Notes under the pieces: model-generated
Databases searched by the model: none
Seen by the model: only the letters and a program-made list of their open reading frames with translations
Told to the model about the DNA's origin: nothing
Program-made: the position numbers and the translations under genes
Shown here: positions 44,558 to 51,370 of the stretch, one piece after another
Position numbering within the stretch: the first letter of the stretch is position 1
Layout: every line of letters begins with the position of its first letter
Source of the DNA: an uncultured Prochlorococcus sp.
GTDB lineage: Bacteria > Cyanobacteriota > Cyanobacteriia > PCC-6307 > Cyanobiaceae
Assembly: GCA_902536555.1 (NCBI GenBank)
Contig: CACAXR010000004.1
Coordinates: 1 to 64,000, forward strand
Direction: 5' to 3'
DNA length: 64,000 bases

Positions 44558-44785
44558 TTATGCTACTAAAGTCGAATCTTCGTTATCAGAGGAAATTCTT
44601 ATTCTTTCTTCCAACTTAGGGCCATATAATTCATTTCCCCAGATTTCAACTCTTGAATCATTTGGGGCCATAAAAGTGAGAATGTCTGTTGGAAATAAAA
44701 CTCTCTCTAAGAAAAAATTTGATGGACCTACACATCTTAAGACAACCATCCTACAACCTTCATTTTTGTAAGAAAACTCAACCAT
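44558..44785 (-). CDS. DUF1830 protein
   Basis: A cyanobacterial DUF1830 protein with the family block SYKNEGCRMVVLRCVGPSNF, FFLERVLFPTDILTFMAP and the WGNELYGPKLEERI end. I place the start at the ATG before VEFSYKNEG, giving 75 residues; a longer frame adds eight codons. It has no membrane segment. The function is unknown. Confidence 0.75.
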   Translation of the reverse strand: MVEFSYKNEGCRMVVLRCVGPSNFFLERVLFPTDILTFMAPNDSRVEIWGNELYGPKLEERIRISSDNEDSTLVA

Positions 44786-44877
44786 TCTTAATAAGCAAAA
44801 TATAATCAATTAAACACTATTGAGAGCTTAAAAAAATGTATAAAAAATTACTGAAAAAAAAACAAATTTAGAAAATG

Positions 44878-45822
44878 CTACAAATTCAATCCAGCCTCAA
44901 CTAAATTTCTTTCTTGATCAATTAATAAAAGCGCATAGGATTTAATAACATCAAAACTTTTATGAGGAATTGAGACATTAAGCATTCTCAAAAAATTAGA
45001 TAATTTTTCATCTTTAAGGGCTTTACCTTTCTGTAAAAACATTTCTTTTTCCTGATTTGTTTTCCATATATTCATATATTCAATCTTCAAGGGCTTTAAG
45101 TGCCAAATATTGTCAATTAAAGTCCAAATATCTAAATATTCGTTTAGGTTATTCTGAATTTTTAATATATAAGATGATTCATCAAAACTCAAATTTGTTG
45201 TGTTTATGGGTCGATTATTTATGTCAAAAGAATAAGGTTTAATCCCCAAAAACCATCCCTCAAGAATTAATAAATCAGGATTATCTAATCTCCAATGAGA
45301 TCTATCTCCTAAACCATTTCGTAAAGATTTATCGAAAACAGGCACATTTAATTCTCCATTTTTCTTCCAATTTAATAATTTTTCATGCATTAATTTTACT
45401 GAGTGACTGCCAGGAAACCCTCTAGAAACATTCCAAGGGTTATTTTTAATTGCTAACTTCATTTCATTTGATGGGAGATAAAAGTCGTCAATTGAAATAA
45501 CCGAAATTTTGAAGTTTAATTTTAACGATATAGCTTCTAACCATTTACCTAGTGTTGTTTTACCTGTACCAGGTAAAGCTGAGATTCCAATAATTTTTCT
45601 ATCAGAAAAATTATTTTGAAATTTATAAGCCTGAGATAAAAGAGGTAAAGCCAAACCCCAAATCCAGTCATCATTTACTTTATTATTCCAATATTGATCA
45701 GTTGAAAGGATGTTTCTTTTATTATTCCAAAAATTAAACCATTCATCCAAGGATTCCCAACCAATATCAATAATTAATTTTTCAAATTTATCAAGAGGAA
45801 AATTAATATCTAAATCTTTCAT
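44878..45822 (-). CDS. D-glycerate 3-kinase (GLYK-type)
   Basis: A 314-residue P-loop kinase with Walker A ALPGTGKTT (82-90), then ISIDDFYLP, a GSHSVKLMHEKLL segment and LLILEGWFLGIKP. This is the plant/cyanobacterial glycerate kinase layout, which phosphorylates D-glycerate to 3-phosphoglycerate, the last photorespiratory step. Here it lies 4 bases behind gpgP, suggesting that it also recovers glycerate freed from glucosylglycerate. Substrate is inferred from family and context. Confidence 0.8.
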   Translation of the reverse strand: MKDLDINFPLDKFEKLIIDIGWESLDEWFNFWNNKRNILSTDQYWNNKVNDDWIWGLALPLLSQAYKFQNNFSDRKIIGISALPGTGKTTLGKWLEAISLKLNFKISVISIDDFYLPSNEMKLAIKNNPWNVSRGFPGSHSVKLMHEKLLNWKKNGELNVPVFDKSLRNGLGDRSHWRLDNPDLLILEGWFLGIKPYSFDINNRPINTTNLSFDESSYILKIQNNLNEYLDIWTLIDNIWHLKPLKIEYMNIWKTNQEKEMFLQKGKALKDEKLSNFLRMLNVSIPHKSFDVIKSYALLLIDQERNLVEAGLNL

Positions 45823-45826
45823 ATTA

Positions 45827-46624
45827 CTAACTTAGTTCTCGCTTATTTATCAATCTATTGATTTCATTTCTCCAACCATATCCATTTGGTTCAGAAGCTA
45901 AAGTAAATTCTAAATCTTTTAATTGATCTAGTAAATTTAAGTTAGGTCCATCTATTCCAGGGATTATAATTTTAACATCTGAGTTTAAAAGTAGAGGTAA
46001 ATCATTTGGAGAATCACCCAAACCTATAATTTCAATATTTTGAATATTTGAATATTCTTTAAGAGCATTTATAGCTTTACCTTTATTCGATTTTGTAGAT
46101 AATAAGTGACTCATTCTATTTCCCTTAAAAATATCAACATTGAACTTTTTACAACAGATATTGATTTTCTCTTCTAAATAACTTGGCGGATTTAAAAAAG
46201 GCATGCTCCAATGCCTATCACGCATTAAGTCCAATGAATCACCTTTTAAACCTGTGAGCTGAGTAGCATCTTGATCAGTGAGATTATTAAGAGGAGTAAG
46301 TTTATAATCAATTTCTTTAGAAATAGAATTTAAGATTTCTTCAAGAGATTCGTATTTTATTCCAAGAATAATTTCTCCATTAACTCTTTTAAGAGATTCA
46401 CCATATATTGCTGCACCATTTTCAACAATATAGGGATCCGTCAACTTAAGTTCCTTTCTAATAACTTTTACTTCGGAAGCAGTTTTGCTTGTACAAAGAA
46501 TTACAGGTATAGATAATTTTTGTAGTTTTTTTATAGTTTCTCTAGCTGGTGTTAAATCATAGGAGTGATCCATTAAAGTACCATCCACATCACTCACTAC
46601 CCAAATAGAAGAATTTTCTATCAT
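45827..46624 (-). CDS. gpgP: HAD phosphatase, glucosyl-/mannosyl-3-phosphoglycerate phosphatase
   Basis: A 265-residue HAD hydrolase of the MPGP group. Motif I has Asp12 and Asp14 (VVSDVDGTLMD), motif II is CTSKT, the cap contains GDSLDLMRDRHWSMPF, and the last acidic motif is IGLGDSPNDLPLL. Such enzymes remove the phosphate of glucosyl- or mannosyl-3-phosphoglycerate. With GpgS divergent nearby, glucosyl-3-phosphoglycerate is the likely substrate, giving glucosylglycerate. It is 2 bases behind the GH13 gene. Confidence 0.82.
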   Translation of the reverse strand: MIENSSIWVVSDVDGTLMDHSYDLTPARETIKKLQKLSIPVILCTSKTASEVKVIRKELKLTDPYIVENGAAIYGESLKRVNGEIILGIKYESLEEILNSISKEIDYKLTPLNNLTDQDATQLTGLKGDSLDLMRDRHWSMPFLNPPSYLEEKINICCKKFNVDIFKGNRMSHLLSTKSNKGKAINALKEYSNIQNIEIIGLGDSPNDLPLLLNSDVKIIIPGIDGPNLNLLDQLKDLEFTLASEPNGYGWRNEINRLINKRELS

Positions 46625-46626
46625 TT

Positions 46627-48387
46627 TTATAAAGCACTAAGCCAAATTACTTGAAAAGGATCAAGACTAATATTTTTGTAATTATATTTTGCGGATGTTA
46701 AAAAATCTTGGGTATTGAAATCATTATCAATTATTTTTGGTAGATCTTTATCATTCAATTGATAATTAATTTTGTTTTCAGTCATATTATGAATTGCAAA
46801 AACAGACTCAGGACCTTTACTTCTCTTGATTACGACAATATCACTTCTACCTTTAGACAAACATTTCATTTCCGAACGAGGGTGAAATTGCTTTAATTCT
46901 GATCTAACATCCATAGCTTTACGAAGATATTTTAAATTTTTATTAGCATTAGATTCAGGATTATTTAAAACGGCTAAAAGATTTTCTGATTTAAACTTTT
47001 CTCTATTTAAATCCCTTCTTTGACCAGTCATAGAAAAACTTTTGATATCATTTTCTGAAGCTAGTAATGCTGGCAAATAAAAGGCAGGAACACCTTTTAA
47101 AGCCATTACTAATAATTGGCTCAAAATAAATCTTTCATATTGAAATTTTTTGGAATCTCTACTGGAGTCTTCCATTGCACTCCACCAACTAATATTCAAC
47201 TCATAAGGTTTATCATCACCATTTGATAAACGTCTATGACTTACTAATCCGCCCCTTTTCTCACAATTAATTAATAAATCTTTTATTCTTACCTCGTCCA
47301 TTAAGCCTTCAAGAGCTCTAAGCCCAACGCCATCATGCGACGCAGTAAAATTAAAAAGGGTAGTATTGTTTGGTAATTCTGGCCAATTAAAAATCCATGA
47401 GTTTAGGATATCAGCTCTAGAAGTAATAATTGCCTCTAGGAGGAGAGGAGGTAATGGGAAATTGTATGCCATATGGGCTTCATCATCAGGAATTAGATAA
47501 GATAGATTTTCCTTCTGAGGAACATTAGTTTCAGTTATTAAAACTCCCTCATCAAGAAGATTATTTAAAAGAACCCTCAAGAGTTTCACAATTGAATGTG
47601 CTTTTGGTAAATGCAAGCAGGTTGTCCCTGATTCCTTCCAAATAAAACCTACAGCATCAAGCCTGAACCATTTAATTCCATTAGATAAATAAGTAATAAT
47701 CAAATTTAAGAACTCAAGAGTCATATTTGGATTATGCCAATTCAAATCAATTTGATCTGGACCAAAAGTTGTCCAAACTTGTTTAATGCCATCTTCAGTA
47801 TTTATTTGAGAGAACAAGGAGGAACTTCGTGGCCTAACTACATTTGACCAGTCGAGATTTTGTTTCGGTGAAAAAACATTTGATATCCCTGGTTCTTGGG
47901 ATTTAATAAATTGTTGAACCCATGGGTGAGATGATGAGACATGGTTTAGTACTAAATCAGCCATTAAATCATGATTTTTAGAAATACTTTTGAGATCATC
48001 CCAACCACCAAATTTTTCTTCCAAGGAATCATAACTTGAGACCGCAAAACCTCCATCACTTGTAGATTTTAAGAAAGGAAGAATATGTACAACTTTAGAA
48101 AGGCTGCCAAAATGTTTACTTAACAAGTCACTAAGAGTTATTAATGTTGCCTCGCCATTTTTATAAATACTATCTGCATAAGTTATCAAAACTGAATGAG
48201 ATTCATCCCACCTTTCCTTATCTCTTATTTCTTCATAAGCAGATTTGTCTGAGAAATCTTCTAAAATCTGTAATAATTGATTTGAAATATAATTAATTTC
48301 TTCTGTAGTATTATTTGAATAAATTGTTTTTAACAATTTACCAATTTTTAATCTATCTAATTTTTTCTCTGAATCAATTTGCTTCAC
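46627..48387 (-). CDS. GH13 sucrose/glucosylglycerate phosphorylase-like enzyme
   Basis: A 586-residue alpha-amylase family protein of the GH13 subfamily 18 type. The catalytic nucleophile is Asp244 (WFRLDAVGFIWKESGT), the acid/base is Glu286 (LITETNVPQKENLSYL) and the transition-state stabiliser is Asp352 (FTASHDGVGLR). The subfamily covers sucrose, sucrose-6-phosphate and glucosylglycerate phosphorylases. Its place next to gpgP, gpgS and glycerate kinase favours glucosylglycerate: it could split it to glucose-1-phosphate and glycerate. The start is GTG, and the upstream region is shared with gpgS. Confidence 0.8.
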   Translation of the reverse strand: MKQIDSEKKLDRLKIGKLLKTIYSNNTTEEINYISNQLLQILEDFSDKSAYEEIRDKERWDESHSVLITYADSIYKNGEATLITLSDLLSKHFGSLSKVVHILPFLKSTSDGGFAVSSYDSLEEKFGGWDDLKSISKNHDLMADLVLNHVSSSHPWVQQFIKSQEPGISNVFSPKQNLDWSNVVRPRSSSLFSQINTEDGIKQVWTTFGPDQIDLNWHNPNMTLEFLNLIITYLSNGIKWFRLDAVGFIWKESGTTCLHLPKAHSIVKLLRVLLNNLLDEGVLITETNVPQKENLSYLIPDDEAHMAYNFPLPPLLLEAIITSRADILNSWIFNWPELPNNTTLFNFTASHDGVGLRALEGLMDEVRIKDLLINCEKRGGLVSHRRLSNGDDKPYELNISWWSAMEDSSRDSKKFQYERFILSQLLVMALKGVPAFYLPALLASENDIKSFSMTGQRRDLNREKFKSENLLAVLNNPESNANKNLKYLRKAMDVRSELKQFHPRSEMKCLSKGRSDIVVIKRSKGPESVFAIHNMTENKINYQLNDKDLPKIIDNDFNTQDFLTSAKYNYKNISLDPFQVIWLSAL

Positions 48388-48437
48388 TTTGAAAAAATCA
48401 ACGAAGTATTAATACTATTCTGCACATCAATCAGAAA

Positions 48438-49664
48438 ATGGACTTTCAACAAGGGTTAATCACAACAATACATGAATATGGAGTTACAAGTAATTTACTT
48501 AAAGAATTAAATAAAAGTCTTAAAAAAAGATCAACTAGCATTTTAATACCTTGCTTATATGAAGAGTTTGAGCGTCCAGCATTAAAAGACATAAGAGAAG
48601 TTTTAAAAGACCTTACAGGCTTAAATGAATTAGTTATTGCCCTCTCTGCAAAAACTGTTGAGCAAGTTAAAGCCGCAAAATCATTCTTTGAATCAATGCC
48701 ATTTCCAGTTCACGTTCAATGGACTAATTCACCCTCTGTAATAGAACTATTAAAAAGCCAAGAAAAAAATGGCTTAGAACTTTTAGGAACTCCAGGAAAA
48801 GGATGGGCTGTCTGGCAAGGCATAGGAGTTGCGACAAGAAAATCAGAAGTTGTTGCTCTTTTCGATGCAGATATAAGAACTTTTAGTCCTTTGTATCCTT
48901 CAAGAATGATCCTTCCACTTCTAGATGAATCATATGGAATATCATATGTAAAAGCTTTTTACAGCAGATTATCCTTAGAGACCAATCAATTGCAAGGTAG
49001 AGCAACAAGATTGTTTGTAGGACCCTTATTGGCAAGTCTTGAGCAGTTAGTAGGGAAAGGTCCTTTTTTACAATATCTACAATCATTTAGATATCCATTA
49101 GCAGGTGAGTTTGCTTTCACTAAAGACCTTGCTATGAATTTACGAATTCCTTGTGACTGGGGCTTAGAGATAGGTTTATTATCAGAGGTCTATAGAAACG
49201 TAAGAACCTCCAAGATAGCCCAAGTTGACCTAGGTTTGTTTGATCATAAACATAAGAATATTGGTGATTCATCTAAAGAAGGATTGCAAAAAATGTGTAC
49301 AGAAATACTTTCAAGTGTTTTAAGAGGTCTCATGGAACATCAAGCCGAGACTTTAACAAGTACTCAACTAGCAACCCTGGAAGTTCTTTATAAAAGAGTT
49401 GGCGAAGATAGAGTAAAACAATTTGGATTAGATTCGGCTGTTAATCAACTTCCATACGATAGGCATGAAGAAGAGTTATCAGTGCAAAAATTTGCTAAAT
49501 TACTAAGACCAGCTACTGAAGAATACCTAGCTTGTCCTACGACGCAGCAGTTACCAAGTTGGTCAAGAGTTCTATCTTGTGAGAACAAACTACAAGAAGA
49601 TTTGGCAATTGCTGGGTCACAAGATATAAAGACAACAGAAAAAGAATTAATTAAAAACTTCTAA
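48438..49664 (+). CDS. gpgS: Glucosyl-3-phosphoglycerate synthase
   Basis: A 408-residue family 81 glycosyltransferase that moves glucose from an NDP donor to 3-phosphoglycerate. Seen are [18 protein letters not shown] near the N-terminus, [16 protein letters not shown], the metal-binding [33 protein letters not shown] and a DWGLEIGLL segment. GpgP then removes phosphate, giving the compatible solute glucosylglycerate, which is known in marine cyanobacteria of nitrogen-poor water. The stop overlaps the convergent ureC by 4 bases. Confidence 0.88.
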
Positions 49665-51370
49665 AGTAAAAAGTACCTTTGAGCCATTGGGACTTCATCA
49701 AGAGGTTCACAAGTAAGAAGTTGCCCATCAGAAAAAACTTCATAAGTTTGAGGGTCAACTGAAATATTTGGAAGTTTACTATTAAGTTTTAAGTTCGATT
49801 TATTGATATTTCTGGTATTCTCTACGGCAATACATTTCTTTTGTAAGCCTAATTTATTTGGAATATTTTGATCAATTGAATTTTTACTTAAAAAGGTGAG
49901 AGAACTCTTAACTAGAGATTGCCCGAAACTTGCAAACATAGGACGACTATGAACAGGACCTGGAGTAGGAATTGAAGCATTTGCATCACCCATCTGGGCC
50001 CAAACTATGGATCCTCCTTTAACAACTAATTCAGGCTTTACCGCAAAAAAGGAAGGTTTCCATAACGCCAAATCAGCAATTTTACCCTTTTCTATAGACC
50101 CAACATGATTATCAATACCATGAGCTATTGCAGGATTAATCGTGACTTTAGAAATGTATCTCTTTATTCTGAAATTATCGTTTCTATCAGAATCCTGCGA
50201 TAGTGGCCCCCTTTGGACTTTCATTTTATGAGCGGTTTGAAAAGTTCTTGTAATTACTTCACCAACTCTTCCCATAGCTTGAGAATCACTAGCAATAATT
50301 GAAAAGGCACCCATATCATGCAATATATCCTCCGCAGCAATAGTTTCTCTTCTGATCCTTGATTCAGCAAATGCGATATCTTCTGGGATTTTAGAATCTA
50401 AATGATGACAAACCATTAACATGTCAAGATGTTCTTCTAATGTGTTTCTCGTATAGGGTCTTGTTGGATTAGTACTACTTGGAAGAACATTTTTTTCTCC
50501 ACAAATTTTTATGATGTCTGGCGCATGACCTCCACCTGCTCCTTCGGTATGAAAAGTATGAATAGTTCTTCCTGCAATAGCGTTGATGGTATCTTCAACA
50601 AAGCCTGCCTCATTTAAAGTATCAGTATGAATACATACTTGTACGTCAAACTTATCTGCAACATTAAGACATGAATTTATTGTAGAGGGAGTTGTTCCCC
50701 AATCCTCATGAAGCTTCAATCCACATGCACCAGCTTCAACCTGATCAATAAGATTTCTCTCGTTTGTTGAATTTCCTTTTCCAAAAAATCCTAAATTCAT
50801 GGGAAATGCCTCTGCAGATTGAAGCATTCTTGAAATGTGAAAAGAACCGGGAGTACAAGTAGTGGCATTTGTGCCAGTTGCAGGTCCAGTTCCTCCTCCC
50901 AGCATGGTTGTAATTCCTGAGGCTAGTGCTGTCTCAATTTGTTGGGGACAAATAAAGTGAATGTGGGTATCTATTGAACCTGCAGTGAGAATATGGCCTT
51001 CGCCAGCTATTACTTCTGTTGATGCTCCAATAACAATATTGACATTATCTTGAATATCAGGATTACCAGCCTTACCAATTTCAAAAATCATTCCATCTTT
51101 AATACCCACATCAGCCTTAATTATTCCCCACCAATCTACGATCAAAGCATTGGTTATTACGGTATCTACAGCTCCATCAGATCTTCTTACTTGAGACTGT
51201 CCCATCCCATCTCGAATAACTTTACCTCCACCAAATTTAACTTCATCTCCGTATGTTGTTAAATCCTTTTCTACTTCTATAAAAAGTTCGGTATCAGCAA
51301 GCCTTACTCTATCTCCGGTAGTGGGTCCGTAAGTTTGCGCATAAGTATTTCTGTTAATTTTATAGGACAT
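49661..51370 (-). CDS. ureC: Urease subunit alpha
   Basis: A 569-residue catalytic subunit that hydrolyses urea to ammonia and CO2. It has the nickel ligands HIHFICPQ, the carbamylated Lys219 ([11 protein letters not shown]), [10 protein letters not shown] and [14 protein letters not shown], and the mobile flap Cys-His in [13 protein letters not shown]. Length and all catalytic residues are as usual. The order ureA-ureB-ureC is on the minus strand with 2-4 bases between genes. Confidence 0.97.

Follow-up and report, generated by a model that had tools for sequence, protein, structure and literature searches.

The window analysed here (64,000 nucleotides of contig CACAXR010000004.1, assembly GCA_902536555.1, from an uncultured Prochlorococcus sp.) carries four abutting genes that were assigned to the metabolism of glucosylglycerate (GGA). 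The locus is very probably the GGA metabolism operon of Prochlorococcus, predicted to serve both synthesis and recycling of the solute, with its glycerate kinase probably kept mainly for recycling. The source genome comprises 968,566 bases in 39 contigs and is 58% complete. The following features were delimited:

44878-45822, minus strand: GLYK, 314 aa, predicted class III (plant-type) D-glycerate 3-kinase (glycerate + ATP to 3-phosphoglycerate)
45827-46624, minus strand: GpgP, 265 aa, predicted HAD phosphatase (glucosyl-3-phosphoglycerate to GGA + Pi)
46627-48387, minus strand: GGaP, 586 aa, GTG start, predicted GH13_18 glucosylglycerate phosphorylase (GGA + Pi to glucose-1-phosphate + D-glycerate)
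48388-48437, no strand: divergent spacer of 50 bases between the starts of ggaP and gpgS
48438-49664, plus strand: GpgS, 408 aa, predicted glucosyl-3-phosphoglycerate synthase

Gaps of 4 bases (GLYK/gpgP) and 2 bases (gpgP/GH13 gene) separate the three minus-strand genes. The gpgP gene lies on the catabolic side with those of GGaP and GLYK, and gpgS is the only gene on the opposite strand.

In the proposed pathway, GpgS would join the glucose of a nucleotide sugar to 3-phosphoglycerate (3PG), and GpgP would dephosphorylate the product to GGA, a compatible solute that contains no nitrogen. GGaP would phosphorolyse GGA to glucose-1-phosphate (G1P) and D-glycerate, a reaction described as reversible (PMC11009771). 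GLYK would turn the glycerate back to 3PG at the cost of one ATP, and the GGA store could be drawn down in this way. The enzyme activities, transcription as an operon and the physiological direction of flux are what we infer from the sequences.

Identity of the four gene products

The GH13 protein matched PF00128 of Pfam. Its best NCBIfam name was sucrose phosphorylase (TIGR03852, E 1.6e-48), where it scored 165.5 bits and the cut-off is 334.4, and the closest solved structures were glucosylglycerol, sucrose-6-phosphate and sucrose phosphorylases. Strict GGaPs (EC 2.4.1.352) are described from Meiothermus silvanus, Spirochaeta thermophila and E. coli; they are set apart from sucrose phosphorylase by the motif (T/S)ETN, located at the strand 5 tip, and by a Glu in loop A, a position taken by Gln in most other clades (PMC7178133). 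Both marks were found in the window protein, as TETN at the acid/base residue (E286) and as E396 within PYEL in loop A. The GH13 catalytic Asp/Glu/Asp residues are D244, E286 and D352, of which we take D244 to be the nucleophile and E286 the acid/base, with D352 in its usual GH13 role. Equivalents of these three residues, TETN and the loop-A Glu were kept in all 122 aligned loci, a set that counts several genomes twice and includes the locus of the window itself (L081); loci L164-L167 stand outside it, as does a GGaP remnant of genome G114, which was too weak a match for the E threshold of this alignment.

E. coli YcjM, which carries the annotation glucosylglycerate phosphorylase, and a homologue from Meiothermus taiwanensis have both marks as well. 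An annotated Enterococcus sucrose phosphorylase had YQ in loop A, and TETN was absent from it. Identity of the GH13 protein as a sucrose phosphorylase was rejected on TETN, the loop-A Glu and the TIGR03852 score below the cut-off. Some activity on sucrose could nevertheless be present in the window enzyme, since a bifunctional GGaP with sucrose activity, XpGP, has been described (PMC11009771). No assay of a picocyanobacterial GGaP was met in the accessible parts of the literature searched.

GpgP scored above the curated cut-offs of NF001215 (567 bits vs 488) and TIGR01486 (308 bits vs 164.75), models that are named for the mannosyl enzyme and do not separate glucosyl from mannosyl substrates; its sequence holds the stretches DVDGT and GDSPNDLPLL. 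GpgS matched NF040724 over nearly its full length (E 1.1e-120) and the solved GpgS chains 7pdo/7p5l (E 1.3e-17), and a DAD stretch is present. Its assignment was based on these matches and on gene context, not on a model cut-off.

For GLYK, no Pfam family was matched at E 0.001. A phmmer search matched the solved D-glycerate-3-kinases 7xpc (E 2.5e-16) and 6ckg (E 6.3e-16), and this homology together with a P-loop of the sequence ALPGTGKT places the protein in class III. Kinases of this class occur in plants and some cyanobacteria; the plant enzyme yields 3PG, and bacterial and animal glycerate kinases yield 2-phosphoglycerate (PMC10970406).

A preliminary description of the locus had recorded an abutting block with GLYK, gpgP and the GH13 gene as one minus-strand unit at 2-4 base spacing and gpgS divergent from it, and the open reading frame (ORF) coordinates bear this out. 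It had also called for a GH13 phosphorylase of the right subfamily and had named activity on sucrose alone as one of two outcomes that would speak against its proposal, the other being a lack of co-occurrence in related genomes. TETN and the loop-A Glu argue for the right subfamily and against such an outcome.

Distribution and conservation of the block

The family survey covered 121 genomes, comprising 120 of at least 90% completeness and the window's own. GGaP (>500 bits) was found in 55, GpgP in 56 and GpgS in 56 of them. GH13 matches at E 4e-36 or weaker were regarded as different GH13 enzymes and do not count among the 55. GpgS was counted at an identity of at least 53% and near full length, which excluded the fragments of G073 and G119 as well as the proteins of G070 and G101 (35-38% identity). 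GpgS and GpgP were both present in 55/55 GGaP-positive genomes, and the one extra genome with both was G114. The co-occurrence of the GH13 protein with GpgS gave a Fisher p of ~5e-34, uncorrected for shared ancestry. A GLYK match was obtained in 117/121 genomes, some being as weak as E 4e-7, and in all 55 GGaP-positive ones (three of these matches were weak, at E 1e-12 to 1e-14). GLYK lay within 5 kb of GGaP in only 25 of these 55, so the four-gene set is restricted to certain genera. Of the co-occurrence that the preliminary description had proposed to check, the part concerning GGaP, GpgS and GpgP thus held throughout; the kinase was always matched but adjacent in fewer than half of the cases.

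Within the window genus, GGaP was found in 26 of 36 other genomes. The 10 genomes lacking it are all less than 90% complete, and 12/12 at or above this value have it. The GH13 protein retrieved 198 confirmed contigs, and the best 80 of these served as the named loci. The full four-gene block, with the same order and strands, was present in 78 of these 80, and the other two (L052 and L076) end inside gpgP. The four-gene arrangement is not by chance. Named relatives with 91-95% GGaP identity, among the same best 80 of 198, were Prochlorococcus and uncultured Synechococcaceae, and the window genus is taken to be Prochlorococcus. Outside the family, an intact gpgS/ggaP/gpgP trio was found in two of four fetched GGaP loci (L125 and L128); the GGaP-like genes of L126 and L127 carry both sequence marks.

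Decayed or irregular modules were also encountered. In G114 (93% complete), gpgS, gpgP and GLYK are kept round a short GGaP remnant with stop codons (L112, 4971-5393, between gpgS and gpgP), and GGA is seemingly made but not phosphorolysed there. Its congener G088 has GLYK and gave no match to the three GGA genes. In G073 (L113, 3455-5351), GLYK lies next to a partial gpgS, gpgP and GGaP being unmatched in the genome; this module looks to be decaying. In G025 (L119), the block occurs twice, in inverted orientation, and GGaP is cut in one of the copies. The second copy, as an inverted duplicate on a single contig, is probably an amplification chimera and was not counted as a true duplication.

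Phage-borne copies were sought by tblastn in 50,697 phage records. The 33 records obtained (Listeria 21, Bacteriophage 5, Arthrobacter 4, Enterococcus 3 by name) were all below 60% identity, none was named as a cyanophage, and the candidate was rejected.

In a tree of 35 GLYK proteins, 14/14 module-adjacent kinases fell into one part together with 6 separate ones, and two label changes were required. Two of the 14 stand beside remnants (G114, G073) and two are shortened by locus ends (G105, G076). The GLYK of the window genus is placed on a long branch of 1.21 changes per column.

Glycerate sources and competing explanations

Sources of glycerate were surveyed in 28 chosen genomes, namely the window's own, 13 near-complete genomes of the same genus and 14 of other genera. 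Presence and absence were judged by match length and score, and only near-full-length or strong matches were counted. Class I (PF02595) and class II (MOFRL, PF05161) glycerate kinases were found in 0/28 genomes each, with controls ringing in 5/14 and 4/14. Full-length GlcD, full-length FMN-type glycolate oxidase and full-length tartronate-semialdehyde reductase (TSR) were each found in 0/13 near-complete same-genus genomes; for GlcD, weak partial hits only were obtained, most of them covering ~130 residues in a protein of ~450 aa. Of the 14 genomes from other genera, 6 held a full-length FMN oxidase, 8 a full-length GlcD and 13 a TSR, the TSR of G114 having an internal stop. Among strong PF02826 matches in the 13 same-genus genomes, a 528-aa SerA-like protein was present in all and was the sole one in 11; a 318-aa hydroxypyruvate-reductase-like protein occurred in two (G121, G144). 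GLYK adjoins GGaP in 13/13.

For strain MIT9312, 2-phosphoglycolate phosphatase and glcE/glcF are reported as missing and the pathway as incomplete; glcD2 is listed as a candidate of unclear function, and TSR candidates are named only in the other three organisms (PMC9723591). The opposite statement, that even Prochlorococcus retains complete photorespiratory gene sets, is also in print (PMC6278635, citing Kern 2011).

Photorespiratory formation of glycerate looks largely lost in the window genus, and GGaP would then be its main recognised glycerate source; GLYK is therefore probably kept mainly for recycling and not for photorespiration. This assignment was drawn from absence of the surveyed families at the sensitivity of the models. 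A further step is put forward tentatively, at a little under even confidence: the kinase may have changed jobs, as a photorespiratory inheritance whose feeder enzymes are gone, locked in the GGA operon with GGaP as its main or only source of glycerate. The probable new role of the kinase is the modest addition made by this analysis. In the literature searched, glucosylglycerate and photorespiration were mentioned together in one paper, the former only in a reference entry, and glucosylglycerate and glycerate kinase in two, a GH13 review and a liver-cancer paper.

Several observations, gathered here with the alternatives they favour, weigh against a synthesis and recycling operon with a dedicated kinase. 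GLYK was matched in 57 family genomes without a match to any GGA gene, and in 30 of the 55 GGaP-positive genomes, which belong to other genera, it is distant from GGaP or on a different contig. GLYK could accordingly be primarily a photorespiratory glycerate kinase, and the GGA genes a three-gene unit with an unrelated neighbour. Its wide distribution (117/121), the hydroxypyruvate-reductase-like protein of G121 and G144, the published claim of complete gene sets (PMC6278635) and the weak partial GlcD-model hits in 13/13 same-genus genomes, which may represent the glcD2 of PMC9723591, are consistent with such a role. In addition, GlcD and TSR matches were under the curated cut-off in all 28 genomes, the full-length ones of other genera included. 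In each of the 13 same-genus genomes, the models for GlcD, TSR, FMN_dh and PF02826 all gave weak partial hits; the FMN_dh partial hits (36-39 bits, ~105/350 positions) and some PF02826 hits exceed the Pfam cut-off. We ascribe these hits to different enzymes that share the folds in question. The case for the kinase would be weaker if a hydroxypyruvate reductase had gone unrecognised. Set against this are the 13 same-genus genomes in which full-length GlcD, FMN-dependent oxidase and TSR are unmatched and GLYK is always adjacent, the SerA-like protein as the only strong PF02826 match in 11 of them, and the gaps in the pathway of MIT9312 (PMC9723591). A primarily photorespiratory GLYK is therefore considered improbable.

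The catabolic half could instead act mainly on GGA imported from other microbes (e.g. Alteromonas), by scavenging rather than by use of an internal store. Such a role was proposed for NATL2A on raised degradation and transporter transcripts (PMC11631117), and a putative GGaP gene is present in plenty of organisms not thought to accumulate GGA (PMC7178133). Within the 121 family genomes, however, GGaP never occurred without GpgS and GpgP, and no recognised transporter was found among ORFs of at least 80 aa within or directly beside the four genes of the window. Scavenging as the main role is thus unlikely; it could go along with internal recycling and is not a full alternative to it. Outside the family, no gpgS or gpgP match was found within the 13-14 kb fetched round the GGaP-like genes of L126 (G057) and L127 (G047), the remainder of both genomes being unsearched; the tie of GGaP to gpgS and gpgP is therefore a family-level result. 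Recycling itself looks dispensable in G114, since GGaP is there a remnant only. The window GGaP shares just 34-36% identity with E. coli YcjM and with the homologue from Meiothermus taiwanensis, and GpgS is under the NCBIfam cut-offs (NF040724, 403.2 bits vs 700; NF010496, 104.5 vs 262). If the GH13 protein were a sucrose phosphorylase or had another GH13_18 specificity, no loop would exist. Its best NCBIfam name and nearest solved relatives point in this direction; the score of about half the TIGR03852 cut-off, the two specificity marks and the family-wide tie of its gene to gpgS and gpgP make this very improbable. Promoter-like sites (23 vs a shuffle mean of 24.9) and terminator-like sites (3 vs 2.4) gave no signal and no promoter consensus, and in strain MED4 gpgS and the gene named gpgP in the paper were unchanged at low salinity (PMC9606707).

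Regulation, neighbouring genes and known systems

The 50-base length of the gpgS/ggaP spacer recurs in 90/121 loci of several genera, and the two promoters therefore probably overlap or extend into coding sequence. A TATTAATA core was seen in the spacer (48388-48437) in most same-genus loci, and several other genera share a stretch resembling ATTCTGTTGC upstream of gpgS. In dark-tolerant NATL2A cells, transcripts for precursor synthesis were depleted and those for recycling to G1P and 3PG enriched (PMC11631117). Together with the 50-base divergent arrangement, these shifts suggest that regulation of the two divergent halves may be opposed. Transcripts of gpgS and gpgP were lowered in low-salt-acclimated NATL1A, and gpgS of AS9601 is cited as raised in high salt (PMC9606707). 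In Table 4 of that paper, the locus numbers of gpgP in MED4 and NATL1A are distant from gpgS; the window gpgP is two genes away. The gpgP so named may be another HAD phosphatase.

On the gpgS side, ureC (49661-51370) is convergent with gpgS, the 3' ends overlapping by 4 bases (49661-49664). The last sense codons of the two genes are 2 bases apart in 79/79 named loci having both. In G022 (L166), no ureC match was present in the 2.6 kb past gpgS. On the other side, a DUF1830 gene (44558-44809) follows GLYK after 68 bases on the same strand, likewise in the same-genus loci displayed. These two neighbours are not recognised transporters. A TauE/SafE-family transporter gene lies close to gpgS in three other genera (L123, 4111-4884; L121, 1301-2080; L124, 11493-12269), called by Pfam for L123 and by blastp grouping with it for L121 and L124.

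GGA, a solute without nitrogen, could serve organisms of the nitrogen-poor ocean as a carbon store, and the loop would offer a way to use it up in the dark. If correct, the role of the kinase would explain the persistence of a supposedly photorespiratory enzyme in genomes apparently unable to salvage photorespiratory carbon. A very abundant photosynthetic lineage would then have turned the end-enzyme of photorespiration into the final step of a compatible-solute store.

The cluster is real, correctly interpreted, ordinary for its genus and already described. A GGA metabolism operon with recycling to G1P and 3PG has been stated for Prochlorococcus NATL2A (PMC11631117), and the recycling loop is therefore not new. 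The synthesis and recycling loop of the preliminary description agrees with that account and is favoured by the gene families, specificity residues and co-occurrence reported above. The window resembles the NATL2A operon in belonging to the same genus and in its co-located compatible-solute genes, and glycerate is among the figure abbreviations of that paper; the term "glycerate kinase" is absent from its text. It differs in that a transporter gene is reported immediately adjacent in NATL2A, and none was recognised directly beside the four genes of the window. In Synechococcus WH8102, SYNW2435 was put in the GGA network in 2010 without an enzyme name, and its number falls between those of gpgP (SYNW2434) and gpgS (SYNW2436) (PMC2874817). 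GGaP genes are often accompanied by genes for glycerate kinase, GpgS or GpgP (PMC7178133), and the window shares this neighbourhood with the strict GGaPs, as well as TETN, the loop-A Glu and the GH13 catalytic residues. The E. coli ycjM operon, in contrast, contains ABC-transporter and other sugar genes, whereas the window has gpgS and gpgP. The window GLYK resembles the class III kinases of plants and some cyanobacteria in its homology to solved D-glycerate-3-kinase, but in the window genus it sits in a GGA operon, and its photorespiratory glycerate feed looks lost.

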